A DNA stretch of 64,000 bases from a bacterium. GTDB lineage: Bacteria > Planctomycetota > Planctomycetia > Planctomycetales > Planctomycetaceae. Within the stretch, counting starts at the first letter, position 1, and the number at the start of each line of letters is the position of its first letter. Shown here piece by piece: positions 55,899-63,720 of this stretch. The position numbers were made by a program, and so were the translations under genes. The stretch covers positions 372,001 through 436,000 of the forward strand of contig WGME01000013.1 in assembly GCA_016125225.1 (NCBI GenBank). Reading direction: 5' to 3'. The notes beneath the pieces were generated by a model. The model was not told the DNA's origin. It was given only the letters and a program-made list of their open reading frames with translations, and made no database searches.

Positions 55899-56374
55899 TG
55901 CCTGCCTGTGATTCCGTGATTGTTCACAAATCGATGCCAAAACCACTGAGGCTGATCTTCCCCTATCCCTCTCACCGCGCAACTTTGTACTCGATAAAAC
56001 TCACGTAGTCGGCGAGTAAGATTCACGAGGCCGTGATTGGGAAGCATCGCATTTTGCACCTCGGACTAATTTGGCACGTGCTACGTTTCTGCATGAGTTC
56101 TCATCTCATGGTCTGTGCAATTCGTCGCACGGATAGACTCGGTGTGAGGTGGCGTGTCAGCAGTGCAAAAGATCCCGCATCTCAAGTGATGAAGACTTTC
56201 GATTCGTGCGCGAACTTAAATGATCCAATCCCTGTCTCCAGAGAGTTTCTACAAATCTCGACAGGGCACCGGTTGTCAAGCCATTTTCTTGGTCGGTAAG
56301 ATCCAAGGACATCCAGAGAACACTGCTCGAGCTCAGACAGGTTGCATTGAATTACTTCATGCCAGAGGGTGGAC
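55899..56374. other. Intergenic stretch of 476 bp, no convincing gene
   Basis: A possible 88-codon frame (56033-56299, plus) has no ribosome site and no protein-like composition; the minus-strand frame 56182-56469 is similar. Base composition becomes more A+T-rich here and stays so to about 56880. I see no long repeat or strong hairpin. The 3' end includes the ribosome site AGAGGG of the small gene at 56375. Confidence 0.5.
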
Positions 56375-56623
56375 ATGATTGTCGGTAGTCTGTTGGGGGA
56401 GTCGCGAGAGCAGCTTCTTCTCCTCAAGTACGATGTCGCTACCGGACGGTTCGTCTTTCGCGACAGCATTTTTTCCGCTTATGCCAACGGTGAGACCACG
56501 GAGCCGGGACCCTACCAGACCGGAAGTTCTCAGATACGTATCGAAACCTCTGTCGCAGTTCCTCTGATTGTGCAAGTCTTTGACGAAATGCCGCATGTGA
56601 TTATTCACATGAAACGACAGTAA
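56375..56623 (+). CDS. Small orphan protein (82 residues)
   Basis: The start is ATG 56375 with AGAGGG upstream at ~5 nt; a GTG at 56369 is possible. The protein reads MIVGSLLGESREQLLLLKYD and later VRIET-like strands (SQIRIETSVAVPLIVQVFDE), suggesting an all-beta fold. No signal or membrane segment. I cannot assign a family. It lies between the regulator and the AAA gene in a more A+T-rich stretch, in the same direction as the AAA gene and 265 bp upstream of it, so the two may be functionally linked, but this is not shown. Confidence 0.55.
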   Translation: MIVGSLLGESREQLLLLKYDVATGRFVFRDSIFSAYANGETTEPGPYQTGSSQIRIETSVAVPLIVQVFDEMPHVIIHMKRQ

Positions 56624-56888: not shown

Positions 56889-58394
56889 ATGCCGACACTC
56901 TCACCTTCTCAACAAACCGTCTGTGATTCCCTGCAGGCCGTCTGGTCTTATCACAATCTGTTTCAACTGTGGTCCTACTCTGGCCTCGGGCGAACGACGA
57001 TGGTGGCAGAACTCCACCACCGACTTGGTGGAATTCGTCTCGGAATCCAGGACTTCGTGAGCGCACAAATTGGTCGCGACCCAACGGCAATCGAGGACAC
57101 GATCTACTGTGTCGTGAGGGACGCGCTCCAGGCTGCGGATCACGTGTTCGTCGACGACTGGCATCTCCTGGCCGATAGCATGTCCCCGTGTGGCCACTAT
57201 CCTCGCGCGGGATATCTCGAAGCGGTCGGTGCGGCTATCGCGGCCCTCGCAACAGCGTCACGCAAGCGGCTCCTGATCGCCTCGGAAAGCGGCCTCCCCC
57301 AATCGATGAATTCTCAGTGTTTTCCGCAGGGAATTGGGGAATTCGATGTTGATGACTATCGCCATCTCTGTCACGCGTATGGAGGTGATGCGACAGGCAC
57401 TTTGGACTTTGAGCAACTCTATCGCTTTGCACCACGGCTCAATGCTTATCAGCTGCGTGAAGTCTGTGACCATTTCGTTCGCACGGATGTATGGTCGACA
57501 GATTCGTTCATCGATTATCTTCGTGAGCGTCAGTTGGTCAGTAACGTCCGTTTGGCAGAAGTCGCTCCAGTTCGTTTTGAAGACCTCATCGGTGTCGACG
57601 ATGTGATTGAAGGACTGCTCAAGCATATTGTGATGCCTCTGGAAAATGACACACTCGCCCAGCAGTTTGACTTGAAACCGAAGCGTGGTGTGTTGCTGCT
57701 TGGCCCGCCGGGAACCGGTAAAACCACAATTGGCAAAGCACTGGCGCATCGCCTTCGTGGCAAGTTCTTCCTGATCGACGGGACGGTGATTTCTGGCACT
57801 GACAGATTCTATCACCAGATTCATTCGATCTTCCAATTGGCGCGCGATAACGCCCCTTCAGTCATCTTCATTGACGATAGCGACGTAATCTTTGAGAACC
57901 AGCAGGAGCACGGACTGTATCGGTATCTGTTGACGATGCTGGATGGACTGGAGGGACAAAGTAACGGCCGGGTCTGCGTCATGCTGACGGCCATGGAGTT
58001 GCAACATATCCCTCCGGCACTGATGCGGTCTGGGCGTGTGGAACTCTGGCTGGAAACCCGATACCCATCCACGGCTGCCCGTGTCGAATTACTACAGCGG
58101 TTGACGGCTTCACTGCCAGCCGAGATCGCGGGTTTTGATTTGGATTCGGCAGCCTTAGCCACGGACGGTTGCAGCGGTGCGGATCTGAAACGCCTGGTCA
58201 ACGATGCCAAGACGTTGTGTGCCTGGGACAAATTCCAAGGCCACGAGATTCAGCCCTTCTCGGCGTATCTGCTCCAGGCCGTGTCGTCATTTCATGAGAA
58301 ACGGGCAGAATATCACGCCGCAGAAAACCGCGGCCGCAAACAGCGGGCAAATCGTCCTGCCTGGTTTGATGTGGCTACCGGAAAAGACAATTGA
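56889..58394 (+). CDS. Two-module AAA ATPase with degenerate first module
   Basis: This is a 501-residue protein. The second module is a classical AAA domain: Walker A GPPGTGKT at 272-279, Walker B VIFIDDSD at 325-332 (Asp-Asp instead of Asp-Glu), a sensor-1 region LTAMELQHIPPALMRSGRVE that lacks the usual Asn, and the final SGADLKRLVNDAKTLC. The first ~200 residues look like a decayed P-loop module: SGLGRTT at 31-37 (Arg in place of Lys) and VFVDDWHLL with Asp89-Asp90. It resembles Cdc48/Vps4-type ATPases in the second half only. No ribosome site is obvious. Substrate and partner are unknown; an unfoldase or an NTP-sensing switch are possible. Confidence 0.85.
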   Translation: MPTLSPSQQTVCDSLQAVWSYHNLFQLWSYSGLGRTTMVAELHHRLGGIRLGIQDFVSAQIGRDPTAIEDTIYCVVRDALQAADHVFVDDWHLLADSMSPCGHYPRAGYLEAVGAAIAALATASRKRLLIASESGLPQSMNSQCFPQGIGEFDVDDYRHLCHAYGGDATGTLDFEQLYRFAPRLNAYQLREVCDHFVRTDVWSTDSFIDYLRERQLVSNVRLAEVAPVRFEDLIGVDDVIEGLLKHIVMPLENDTLAQQFDLKPKRGVLLLGPPGTGKTTIGKALAHRLRGKFFLIDGTVISGTDRFYHQIHSIFQLARDNAPSVIFIDDSDVIFENQQEHGLYRYLLTMLDGLEGQSNGRVCVMLTAMELQHIPPALMRSGRVELWLETRYPSTAARVELLQRLTASLPAEIAGFDLDSAALATDGCSGADLKRLVNDAKTLCAWDKFQGHEIQPFSAYLLQAVSSFHEKRAEYHAAENRGRKQRANRPAWFDVATGKDN

Positions 58395-59632: not shown

Positions 59633-62305
59633 ATGATGCGAGGCTTGTTATATCGATCGCATACCATCCTCGTGTTTGGCTCGATTGCGACAGTATGTCT
59701 GCTGGCGTCGGTTCTGACATATGCCGCTGACCCCGGCGGTTCTGGCAATTCGCCAGAACGTTTGCAATCCAGCGAGTTGCCTCCGTTATCCACAGCTCGG
59801 GATGCGGGACGTTCCAAGTCTGCTTTGCTGACATCGACTGTACGAAAGGCAGCTCCTGAATCGACGGCGGAACGGAAGGCGAATCTTGCGGACTTCGAAA
59901 AGCATGTGAAGCCAGCACTCACACTGGCCTGCGTGAAGTGTCATGGTGCGGAACTTGCGGAGAGACAGATTCGCATCGATACGTTGAATCCCGACCTGTT
60001 GCAAGGCGGAGACGTCAAACGCTGGCTCGAAGTTCGCGATGTCATTTCCAACGGAGAAATGCCACCAGAAGATGCCGAACAGAAATTGGCCGACGCGGAT
60101 TTGCGTCGGATTATCGAGTGGCTGAATCAGGAGATTCAGTGGGCATCCACAGTGCGTCGCGGTGAAGAGAGCTATTCGTCGTTCCGCCGCATGGCCCGGT
60201 ACGAATACAACTACGCACTGCAGGATCTGCTTGGCCTGCCGTATGACTTCGCTGATAACTTGCCCCCGGAAACGGCTTCTGAGGACGGCTTTCAGAACAA
60301 TTCCGAATTGCTGCAAATCTCGACCATGCAGTTCGAGACTTTCCGAGAGATCGGACTCAAAGCTCTGAAACGAGCCACCGTCATTGGGGAGCGACCGGAA
60401 CCGGTGACCTACATCATCTCGATGCAGGATGAAATGACAAAAGCCGCGACAGACCCTTCAAAGCTCTTCGACAAAGTCGACGAAACCAATCAGAGTAAGA
60501 GAAACCGTCCGCATCTCTTCAATCGTGAAACGGGCCAGGGACTTCCCTATGCCGAGGGCAAATTTCTGCCAACGACGGATGCCGTCGCAGGCCAGACACC
60601 CGCGGTATCCCCCATCGTATTGGCTCTCCCGCGATCCACAGAGGTCAAGTTAGACCTGGACCGCTTCCTTCCCGATGAAGGCATCATGCATGTGCGGATT
60701 CGTGCCGGGCGCACCACCATGGACCCGGAAGAATTTGCGAGCCTCCGTTTGATCTTCAGTGCCCATACCAGCAACAACGCCAATTTCTCCCAGATCGTCA
60801 GCCAGCATGATATTCCCGTAACGGCATCGGCAGACAATCCGGAGTTCATCCATTTCGACATTCCCTTGGGCGACATCCAGCGCAATCCCTTCCGCAAGCT
60901 GGAAACCACATTCCCCAGGCGTGATGAGTTCCTGCATATTCACAATGTCTCCAATGCCCGGAATCAAAACGAGCCGCTGCATGTGCTGATCGATTCCATC
61001 GAAATCAGCGCACCATATTACGAACAATGGCCACCGAAAACGCATACGGACATCTTTTTTGACAGCCCGCACCGCAGTAATGAGGAACTCTATGGTCGAG
61101 AGGTGTTGGAGCGATTTCTGCGACGAGTCTGGCGTCGCCCGGTGACTTCGGCCGAAGTGGATCAGTTCATGGGCTTGTTTGCGGAATATCGCACACAGTT
61201 CACAACGTTTGAGGAGGCCATGATAGAGGTATTGGCAACAACGCTGGCGACGCCGGAGTTTCTCTATCTGACTCAGAAGTCGGCGGCCGATGATGCTACG
61301 GGGCCGGAGATGATCAGTGATGTAGAACTGGCCAGCCGACTGTCATTCTTTCTCTGGTCAAGCATCCCCGATGAGCCACTGATGCAACTTGCTGAACAAG
61401 GTACGCTGCATGAAACGGATGTGCTGACGGCGCAGGTCAGCCGCATGCTGGCCGACCCGCGTTCGCAGCGGTTCTCTCAAAACTTCGTGCAGCAGTGGCT
61501 TGGTCTCGATGGTCTGCAGAGTATCACTCACGTCACAGACAGCTCTCTGCTGGAGGCTATGGAGGAGGAGCCGATTGCTTTCTTTGCTGAGGTGTTGGAG
61601 CGGAACGGTAGCCTCTTCGATTTCATTCATTCCGACTATGTCGTGGTCAATGAACGACTGGCACGACACTATGGCATTCCTGGGGTGTACGGTCCGCATT
61701 TTCGTGCCGTACCAGTTGAAGCCAGGCAGAATCGCGGCGGCGTATTAACCCATGCGGCGGTCTTGACGATGAACTCTGACGGCCAGGATTCTCATGTGCT
61801 GAAACGAGGTGTCTGGCTGCTGGAACGGATGCTTCAAGATCCCCCGCCCCCGCCTCCACCGAATGTTCCGCAAGTCGATTTGACTGATCCGAATATCCTG
61901 AAAATGACTCTAAAAGAGCGGCTAATCAATCACCGTAGCAAGCCCGCCTGCATCTCCTGTCACTCGAAAATCGATCCTTGGGGCATCGCGTTCGAGAATT
62001 ATGATGCCTTAGGGCTCTATCGGACGACAATCAAGAATACGCCGGTGGATGCGCAGGCTGAGTTGTTCAATAAGCAGGAATTGGCGGGGATGGATGGCCT
62101 GAAACGCTATCTGCTCGCAGACCGTCAGGACCAATTTGTTCGAGCCATGGTTCAGAAAATGACGTCATATGCTCTTGGCCGATCGTTGTCGTTCAGCGAT
62201 CATGCGGACATTGACAGTCTGGCAGTCCAATGCCGGCAAGAGGGAGATCGCCTGGGCGCTCTTGTGCGATTGATCGTCACCAGTGACATCTTCAGATCAA
62301 AATGA
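59633..62305 (+). CDS. DUF1592 domain protein (PSCyt/DUF1587/DUF1592/DUF1588/DUF1585 array)
   Basis: This 890-residue exported protein has an N-terminal signal helix. Domains in order: a planctomycetal cytochrome-like segment with CVKCHG (heme or metal Cys-x-x-Cys-His, near residue 99); DUF1587 (RYEYNYALQDLLGLPYDFAD); DUF1592 (LASRLSFFLWSSIPDEPLMQ); DUF1588 (DPPPPPPPNVP, then CISCHSKIDPWGIAFENYDA with a second CxxCH near 773); DUF1585 (MTSYALGRSLSFSDHADIDS). This family is found mainly in Planctomycetes and is nearly always followed by a DUF1552 gene, as here (ATGA overlap). The pair is thought to work in the periplasm; function unproven. Confidence 0.95.
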   Translation: MMRGLLYRSHTILVFGSIATVCLLASVLTYAADPGGSGNSPERLQSSELPPLSTARDAGRSKSALLTSTVRKAAPESTAERKANLADFEKHVKPALTLACVKCHGAELAERQIRIDTLNPDLLQGGDVKRWLEVRDVISNGEMPPEDAEQKLADADLRRIIEWLNQEIQWASTVRRGEESYSSFRRMARYEYNYALQDLLGLPYDFADNLPPETASEDGFQNNSELLQISTMQFETFREIGLKALKRATVIGERPEPVTYIISMQDEMTKAATDPSKLFDKVDETNQSKRNRPHLFNRETGQGLPYAEGKFLPTTDAVAGQTPAVSPIVLALPRSTEVKLDLDRFLPDEGIMHVRIRAGRTTMDPEEFASLRLIFSAHTSNNANFSQIVSQHDIPVTASADNPEFIHFDIPLGDIQRNPFRKLETTFPRRDEFLHIHNVSNARNQNEPLHVLIDSIEISAPYYEQWPPKTHTDIFFDSPHRSNEELYGREVLERFLRRVWRRPVTSAEVDQFMGLFAEYRTQFTTFEEAMIEVLATTLATPEFLYLTQKSAADDATGPEMISDVELASRLSFFLWSSIPDEPLMQLAEQGTLHETDVLTAQVSRMLADPRSQRFSQNFVQQWLGLDGLQSITHVTDSSLLEAMEEEPIAFFAEVLERNGSLFDFIHSDYVVVNERLARHYGIPGVYGPHFRAVPVEARQNRGGVLTHAAVLTMNSDGQDSHVLKRGVWLLERMLQDPPPPPPPNVPQVDLTDPNILKMTLKERLINHRSKPACISCHSKIDPWGIAFENYDALGLYRTTIKNTPVDAQAELFNKQELAGMDGLKRYLLADRQDQFVRAMVQKMTSYALGRSLSFSDHADIDSLAVQCRQEGDRLGALVRLIVTSDIFRSK

Positions 62306-63720
62306 AAGCCGGGAATCGCCTGATGAATACGAAGACACTTTCCATCAGTCGTCGAAACTTTCTGCGCGGAACCGGCGTGGCGTTGGCATTGCCCTGGTTC
62401 GAATCGTTTGCCGTGGCTCATCCCGGTAACGAGACCACTCCCCGACGATTTCTCAGCGTCTATCATCCGGATGGGGTGGGCTTGCCTCTCAAATCTGATC
62501 CTGCGTGCGAAGATTGGAGCTGGTTTCCTCGTGGCGGCGAGAAGGATTTCCAGTTGACCAAAGTGCTCGACGTGCTCGAGCCTTTGCGGAGCGACATTAC
62601 CATCTACTCAGGATTGTCGCACCCGGCGGCCAGAACTGTTCACGGCCACTCCAATGCTGATCAATATCTGACAGGTGCGGCGACCGGCGGCCATGGACCC
62701 TACAAAAATTCGATTTCCGTCGATCAGGTTTACGCAGCCTATGCCGGGGAATTCACTCGCCATGCTTCACTAGTCATGTCCACCAACGGCGGAATTGGTG
62801 GCCCTCGTGGCGCACAAACGCAATCGTTCAACAGTGCGGGGCGGCCAATTCCCGCGATGAACAAACCCAAGCAGATCTTTGACATGCTGTTTGTTACCAG
62901 CGGCAAAGAGTCTGCCGCAAAACTGGCCAGAAGCAAAAGTGCCCTCGATCTGCTCATCGCCAACACGCGATCGCTGGAGCAGAAGCTGTCACAGCGGGAT
63001 CAGCAGACTCTTCAGCAGTATCTCGATGCCGTTCGCGATACGGAAATCAAATTGGCCCGAGCTCAGCGATGGATGGACACACCAGTGCCACAGGTCGATC
63101 CCGGAAATTTGCATCTGGATGCGGAACCCGCAGAAGCTCGGCTCTATTTTCAGACCATGTACGAATTGATTTATCTGTCTTTCCTCAGTGACTCGACCCG
63201 CGTGGCCACATTCCAGTTGGGCCGAGAAAATGGCGAAGGGCCGCACGATCTGTTATCGCGGGCCGTTGGACTCGGCGGTGCGCATGGCCTGACACACGCC
63301 GTGAAAGAACCAAATGGCTGGCAGAACCTCGGCACCTACAATCGCTACCAGGCCGAAGAGTTCGGGCGCTTCGTGCAGAAACTCAAGGACACAGCAGAAC
63401 CAACCGGTAATGGGAACATGCTGGACAACACCTTCGCCATGCATGGATCAGCATCCAGCAGCTTCCACCTCTCGCGTAACTACCCGATTATTTCCGCCGG
63501 GGGTAAGAATCTCGGCTTCGAGAATGGCCGGTATCTCAAATTTGGCAAAGGCAATGAAGACAATCAGGCGGGGGCCGGTATCGTGACCGATGCGGGCTGG
63601 CGAAGCAAAACCGAAGTCGAAGAACTGCCTCTGTCACACCTGTTCGTAACGATCCTGCAAAAGCTCGGCGTCGAAACCGAATCATTCGGCGGAGCCACCG
63701 GGACGTTAACCCGCGTGTGA
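62302..63720 (+). CDS. DUF1552 domain protein with Tat signal
   Basis: The product is 472 residues from the ATG at 62302 that overlaps the DUF1592 stop; a start at 62323 (MNTKTLSISR) is also possible. The Tat motif is SRRNFLRGTGVALALPWFES. The body is DUF1552, related to alkaline-phosphatase/DUF1501-like folds: GLPLKSDPACEDWSWFPRGG, ITIYSGLSHPAARTVHGHSN and the C-terminal MLDNTFAMHGSASSSFHLSR. Domains with DUF1592 and DUF1552 in order are a planctomycetal hallmark. Which compound they handle is not established. Confidence 0.94.
   Translation: MKAGNRLMNTKTLSISRRNFLRGTGVALALPWFESFAVAHPGNETTPRRFLSVYHPDGVGLPLKSDPACEDWSWFPRGGEKDFQLTKVLDVLEPLRSDITIYSGLSHPAARTVHGHSNADQYLTGAATGGHGPYKNSISVDQVYAAYAGEFTRHASLVMSTNGGIGGPRGAQTQSFNSAGRPIPAMNKPKQIFDMLFVTSGKESAAKLARSKSALDLLIANTRSLEQKLSQRDQQTLQQYLDAVRDTEIKLARAQRWMDTPVPQVDPGNLHLDAEPAEARLYFQTMYELIYLSFLSDSTRVATFQLGRENGEGPHDLLSRAVGLGGAHGLTHAVKEPNGWQNLGTYNRYQAEEFGRFVQKLKDTAEPTGNGNMLDNTFAMHGSASSSFHLSRNYPIISAGGKNLGFENGRYLKFGKGNEDNQAGAGIVTDAGWRSKTEVEELPLSHLFVTILQKLGVETESFGGATGTLTRV

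Follow-up and report, generated by a model that had tools for sequence, protein, structure and literature searches.

A rare family of Cdc48-like double-AAA proteins, most likely of Planctomycetota, with an Asp-Asp Walker B motif and a sensor-1 Met in its D2-like half

We analyzed a double-AAA protein encoded in a stretch of bacterial DNA of 64,000 nucleotides (referred to as the window here) and found that it belongs to a distinct, rare family, most likely of Planctomycetota, whose members are Cdc48-like double-AAA proteins that lack an N domain. In the C-terminal, D2-like half of these proteins, Asp replaces the catalytic Glu of Walker B and Met replaces the sensor-1 Asn, and both changes hold as family traits, beyond chance. 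The N-terminal, D1-like half is degenerate. This combination possibly reflects a ring or switch that is held by ATP.

The frame is uninterrupted over 501 amino acids and represents a real gene, as full-length homologues are found in 12 other genomes. The features of the protein are given in Table 1. The C half matches the AAA family PF00004 over residues 268 to 386 with 89 bits (gathering cut-off, 21.2), and the lid family AAA_lid_3 barely passes (27.9 bits versus a cut-off of 27.2). In line with the preliminary description, which could name no family for the protein, none of the best 25 of the 66 curated NCBIfam models that match it reaches its cut-off; the best one is CDC48 (TIGR01243), with 118.4 bits against a cut-off of 802.65. 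An N-terminal substrate or adaptor domain is absent from the best 25 of 36 matching Pfam families, and there is no room for one, given that the alignment of the N-half AAA core begins at residue 24. A full-length AF2 model, built with Cdc48 proteins as alignment, has a mean pLDDT of 70.9; it is reliable in the C half alone, with block means between 75 and 97 for residues 221 to 490, and falls below 50 at residues 92 to 172. According to Foldseek, the C half matches FtsH, p97, and PAN-like folds, with a Ycf2-FtsHi motor subunit as the top match.

Table 1. Features of the double-AAA protein and its gene; positions are those of the window, and fractions refer to the 13 family members
Feature	Positions	Strand	Basis or conservation
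Double-AAA protein, 501 aa	56889..58394	+	Open frame; 12 full-length homologues
N half: AAA core and lid, D1-like but degenerate	56889..57551	+	Profile comparisons
N-half P-loop GLGRTT, residues 32-37	56982..56999	+	Residue 35 is R in 7/13, K in 6/13
N-half Walker B VFVDD, residues 86-90	57144..57158	+	D89 in 13/13, D90 in 12/13
C half, classical AAA module, D2-like	57552..58232	+	Pfam, AF2, Foldseek
Walker A GPPGTGKT, residues 272-279	57702..57725	+	Lys278 and Thr279 in 13/13
Pore-loop-1 region without the usual motif	57777..57812	+	Displaced Phe307-Tyr308; FY in 12/13
Walker B VIFIDDSD, D329-D330	57861..57884	+	Asp330 replaces Glu
Inter-subunit signaling (ISS) motif LDG	57939..57947	+	Asp-Gly in 13/13
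Sensor-1 strand end TAM	57987..57995	+	Met369 replaces Asn
RSGRVEL	58026..58046	+	First Arg finger R383 and second-place Leu386, both in 13/13
Sensor-2 GAD, as in classical AAA proteins	58176..58184	+	Family alignment
Predicted C-terminal tail helix with Tyr475, as in Cdc48-type D2	58257..58349	+	AF2 prediction for the window protein only; Tyr in 10/13

To delimit the family, we searched with the whole protein and with each half. Among 59 relatives, the whole protein found, beyond its own gene, only general AAA matches, mostly to the C half and 26 to 36% identical to it among the matches listed; four other AAA matches lie in its own genome. The N half alone is a specific query. It retrieved 5 further homologues in a phylum sample of 392 genomes (E of 3.5e-15 or better), and an N-half profile added 7 more in a class sample of 397 genomes. 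This yielded 13 full-length members, all of one phylum and including the window protein, of which ∼12 are independent, since two of them (L158 and L159) differ at just 16 of 484 residues. Identity to the window protein is 35 to 55% for the first five homologues and 43 to 52% for the other seven (BLAST). A C-half profile at an E of 1e-45 recovered the same nine of the 397 genomes as the N-half profile, showing that the two halves co-occur in the class sample.

Because scoring in the large profile searches was limited to the 6 to 17 best candidates of each genome, the counts are lower bounds: members occur in at least 6 of the 392 phylum-sample genomes, at least 9 of the 397 class-sample genomes, and at least 6 of 170 genomes of the bacterium's own family, its own genome included each time. 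Three other classes, each chosen for holding a known member, gave 1 of 6, 1 of 23, and 2 of 20 genomes. Matches were found in 9 genomes of the phylum sample and 12 of the class sample, from which we left out weak partial matches in the former (G029, G037, and G094) and partial ones in the latter (G491, G589, and G606). Two further genomes of the genus were searched, one of them 64% complete, and gave no match. Outside the phylum, a full-length match was found in none of 33 records (32 genomes and one plasmid), and 4 of the 33 held partial matches of 45 to 116 positions (E of 8.9e-6 to 9.3e-4). At least 80 loci from a profile search of genome contigs are ordinary AAA proteins, and members may be missed by that search. 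A limited literature search brought up no description of a bacterial family of this kind.

In a tree of 87 rows, calculated with a quick method and containing long branches, the 13 C halves form one clade (SH-aLRT, 99; stem, 2.67) that groups with neither Cdc48 D1 nor Cdc48 D2. A long-branched viral row (L123) joins the base of this clade at 83, a position flagged by the program as possibly false. For the L158/L159 pair, dN (0.018) is well below dS (0.359), so at least this pair is under purifying selection.

The features that the preliminary description had read from the C half are borne out across the family. Walker A is intact, and residue 330, where it had noted Asp for the catalytic Glu and had proposed that homologues be compared, is Asp in 12 of the 13 members; a single one of the 12 homologues (L025) carries Glu. 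The position at which it had seen no clear sensor-1 Asn, counted 11 residues N-terminal to R380 in RSGR, holds Met in 12 of the 13 and Ser in the remaining one (L024). The pattern is thus not absolute, with Glu in L025 and Ser in L024, and both changes occur together in 11 of the 13 members versus none of 182 control domains. These controls are the full-length AAA domains among 214 that were gathered by similarity to the window protein (the other 32 were not full length), and they lean toward proteins that we labeled, by their length and record titles, as Cdc48-like and FtsH-like, and are silent on more distant AAA+ groups. Their Walker B reads Asp-Glu in 180 cases, Asp-Gln in 1, Glu-Asp in 1, and Asp-Asp in none, and their sensor 1 is Asn in all 181 readable domains (one was unreadable).

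Invariant in all 13 members are the C-half residues K278, T279, D329, D332, D352, G353, T367, A368, R380, and R383. Sensor 2 reads GAD or AAD throughout, with Asp432 kept in each member. By a loose pattern scan, the usual pore-loop-1 motif is present in 0 of 13 members versus 169 of 182 controls. A Phe-Tyr pair (12 of 13) lies about 4 residues past the usual pore-loop site, where it begins the next predicted helix, and could still touch a substrate. At the second Arg-finger place, Leu is found in every member, whereas the controls have Arg in 140 cases, another residue in 41 (7 of them Leu), and 1 unreadable position; given that 41 of 181 readable controls also do without Arg there, this Leu is less telling.

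The family member with Glu (L025, positions 1489 to 2967) still carries the sensor-1 Met. In a Cdc48-like protein from a Deltaproteobacteria assembly (L116, 1 to 1932), Asp-Gln replaces Asp-Glu in the Walker B of the second domain, which makes it a natural counterpart of the usual laboratory trap mutation. The AAA protein of a viral contig (L123, 3327 to 6029), on a very long branch, has the Walker B order reversed to Glu-Asp.

The N half of the window protein alone matches no Pfam family at an E of 1, and AAA families match weakly (E up to 1) in the N halves of 4 of 6 members. Compared with solved structures, the N-half family profile retrieves the AAA domains of a VCP-like ATPase with a whole-sequence E of 5e-7, although single stretches of this match are weak (0.13 and 0.34). 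In hhalign, the N half aligns with the C half of its own family over 84 columns (E of 4.8e-11). On the basis of these profiles, we take the N half as a degenerate AAA core that is related to AAA modules, and not as the unrelated domain that the preliminary description had considered. The remnants of a P-loop and of a VDD motif that it had pointed out are present as GLGRTT and as D89-D90, and its claim that Asp-Asp is common to both halves stands, the pair being kept in both across most members. The same cannot be said of its Arg-for-Lys change in the P-loop: R35 is there in the window protein but is not fixed in the family, and it carries no weight in what follows. The second Walker B residue of the N half is Asp or Asn (the latter in L024 alone) and never Glu among the 13 members. 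Visual inspection of residues 118 to 158 revealed neither an RxGR motif nor a clear Asn at sensor 1, and a single-sequence structure model of the N half has a low pLDDT of 44.3. It is unlikely that this D1-like half hydrolyzes ATP. Ycf46-like AAA proteins may be built alike, having ∼500 amino acids and a single AAA module next to an N half that is degenerate.

The family resembles Cdc48/VCP/p97 and archaeal VAT, which give the best NCBIfam and PDB sequence matches, in its two tandem AAA modules and in a classical C half that has GAD, the Asp-Gly of the ISS motif, and, by prediction, a tail helix bearing Tyr (described for Cdc48-type D2 in PMC5070193). It differs from them in having neither an N domain nor the usual pore-loop motif, in its Asp-Asp and Met, and in its degenerate N half. 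The altered site itself has a precedent in NSF D2, which shares the Asp-Asp and likewise has a residue other than Asn at sensor 1: in solved structures, its Walker B reads VVVDDIERLL and its sensor 1 TTSR, where the Ser aligns with the sensor-1 Asn374 of NSF D1. Ser is described as an accepted sensor-1 residue. According to a review, NSF D2 binds ATP at 30 to 40 nM, forms hexamers, and hydrolyzes slowly, a slowness that its authors explain by Lys631 and the lack of Arg fingers and not by the Asp-Asp (PMC11532144). Comparably tight binding would be expected for the present family. NSF D2 is described as having no functional Arg fingers or tail helix and Lys/Arg at sensor 2, whereas the present family retains one Arg finger, the sensor-2 GAD, and a predicted tail helix. 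NSF D1, in turn, is a working ATPase, in contrast to the degenerate D1-like half found here. Pex1/Pex6 is alike in its degenerate D1 without a canonical Walker B, with Arg fingers described as not conserved; however, Pex6 D2 is reported to drive ATP-dependent motion, while the D2-like half of our family is altered too. An Asp for the catalytic Glu is also reported for ABCC1 (MRP1), an ABC transporter and hence a member of another ATPase class, in whose degenerate site D793 occupies this position and activity is restored by D793E (PMC10353158). Further papers drawn on in this work are PMC6160233 and PMC4490564.

What this site does is best explained, at slightly less than even chances, by a ring or switch that is held by ATP and hydrolyzes it slowly in the manner of NSF D2, rather than by a threading motor. 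The D2-like half would bind ATP and close the ring via an Arg finger in trans, Asp330 and Met369 would make it slow or unable to hydrolyze, and the ATP-bound ring would act as a stable scaffold or a nucleotide-responsive switch that threads no substrate. ATP binding is probably kept, since Walker A and D329 are retained, and hydrolysis should slow strongly, since both catalytic residues are changed in one site. The preliminary description had proposed a slowly hydrolyzing, ATP-bound switch; the conserved pattern fits this idea, and NSF D2 and ABCC1 are partial parallels, but we infer, and do not show, that the protein forms a ring, binds ATP tightly, hydrolyzes it slowly, and acts as a switch. 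Several points weaken the switch reading: Glu in L025 and Ser in L024 depart from the pattern, the slowness of NSF D2 is ascribed to its lack of Arg fingers and to Lys631, while our family keeps one Arg finger, and the GAD sensor 2 and predicted tail helix, both absent from NSF D2, are kept here.

These same points speak for a working, if slow, ATPase that remodels its substrate, in which Asp330 would serve as the base, Thr367 or the backbone would stand in for sensor 1, and Phe307-Tyr308 would form a displaced pore contact. A QM/MM study of p97 identifies Glu305 as the base and has Asn348 orient the water, which is also strongly bonded to the main-chain amide that links Thr347 and Asn348 (PMC12529919). 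By analogy, a side-chain change at sensor 1 need not be fatal. Asp330 could still act as the base. The first Arg finger, the ISS Asp-Gly, and Asp432 in 13 of 13 members and the tail Tyr in 10 of 13 are what such an enzyme would keep, as are Thr367 (13 of 13) and the Phe-Tyr pair (12 of 13), and one member has Glu and another a sensor-1 Ser. The NSF review's own account of the slow D2 and the second Arg-finger counts of the controls add to this. Nevertheless, the coincidence of both catalytic changes in 11 of 13 members and 0 of 182 controls, together with the absence of the usual pore-loop motif from all 13, makes a slow remodeling ATPase rather unlikely.

A third reading is an inactive subunit that would form a mixed ring with another, active AAA protein of its cell, like Pex1/Pex6 or FtsHi. 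The chloroplast FtsHi proteins are inactive subunits in a mixed AAA ring. R383, present in every member, could serve the site of a neighboring subunit, the four other AAA matches of the genome would be candidate partners, and the top Foldseek match is a Ycf2-FtsHi motor subunit. We consider this improbable, given that comparisons across the 13 loci found no AAA partner gene beside the family gene and no neighbor that recurs outside one genus, that the family forms a clade of its own (SH-aLRT, 99), and that the Foldseek match reflects the general AAA fold. That the gene is decaying, as its rare and patchy occurrence might suggest, is hardly credible at all: the full-length frame is open in 13 of 13 members, most of them share the same changes, and dN is well below dS in the tested pair. 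The conserved pattern and, for that one pair, dN/dS likewise rule out a local mutation or a pseudogene.

The Asp-Asp site as such is not new, as NSF D2 and ABCC1 precede it. The novelty appears to lie in the combination: a family of bacterial proteins in which a degenerate D1-like half is joined to a D2-like half with Asp-Asp, Met, and an altered pore loop, while the sensor-2 Asp, the Asp-Gly of the ISS motif, and a single Arg finger are retained, as is the tail Tyr in 10 of 13 members. If the ATP-held ring is the right explanation, a Cdc48-type machine has become a scaffold that binds ATP in bacteria as well, with changes like those of NSF D2 at Walker B (Asp-Asp) and sensor 1, but in the sole well-preserved module. 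It is doubtful, though conceivable, that the family is an all-pseudo-ATPase relative of Cdc48, in which neither ring hydrolyzes usefully and which serves across several classes of its phylum as a reader of ATP levels or an ATP-locked scaffold. The natural members with DD or DE and with Met or Ser offer a ready test of the share of each residue in AAA hydrolysis.

In its genomic surroundings, the gene has a composition near that of its neighbors, as judged from its GC content (0.551 versus 0.542 to 0.582) and third-position GC (0.594 versus 0.609 to 0.677). No neighbor recurs outside one genus among the called genes of the 13 loci, several of which are short or stop close to the family gene, and in one of which (L032) the gene caller missed that gene itself; neighbors recur only among L169, L170, and L172, which belong to that one genus. 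Three further flank-to-flank matches are scattered among the 13 loci, none involving the window, and ten neighbors from 6 of these loci belong to unrelated Pfam families or to none. A defense system was considered and rejected, as there are only general AAA matches (IetA in PADLOC; phage families) and no recurring neighbor outside one genus. The NCBIfam equivalog of IetA, the ATPase of the anti-phage system ietAS, scores 47.8 bits, below its cut-off of 510. The ietA gene is adjoined by a gene for a subtilisin-like protease; none of the seven ORFs of the window that were scanned with Pfam matches peptidase S8. A phage or plasmid origin was rejected too, since no phage or plasmid record covers 80% of the protein. 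The 36 viral loci matched by the whole-protein profile all match from residue 191 onward, and 11 viral stretches match the N-half pattern, none of which encodes a relative.

The small orphan gene that the preliminary description had placed beside the AAA gene, probably the upstream 84-amino-acid ORF at 56369-56623 (+), has a GC content of 0.514 and a third-position GC of 0.576, and it does not seem to be an orphan. Over 77 positions, it is 51% identical to residues 421 to 497 of another frame of 501 amino acids, in L185, the remainder of which has no match with a good E value anywhere in the window. The ORF looks like a gene remnant; resembling the end of the L185 frame, it was rejected as a partner of the double-AAA protein and carries no weight in our argument. 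By eye, the L185 frame begins with a signal-peptide-like stretch. Neighboring genes in the window belong to planctomycete-type Pfam families, such as PSD2 to PSD5, PSCyt1, and PSCyt3, which point to a planctomycete as the host, and the region 59633-63720 (+) holds a DUF1592/DUF1588/DUF1585/DUF1595/DUF1587 protein followed by an ORF of 472 amino acids that overlaps it by four bases.
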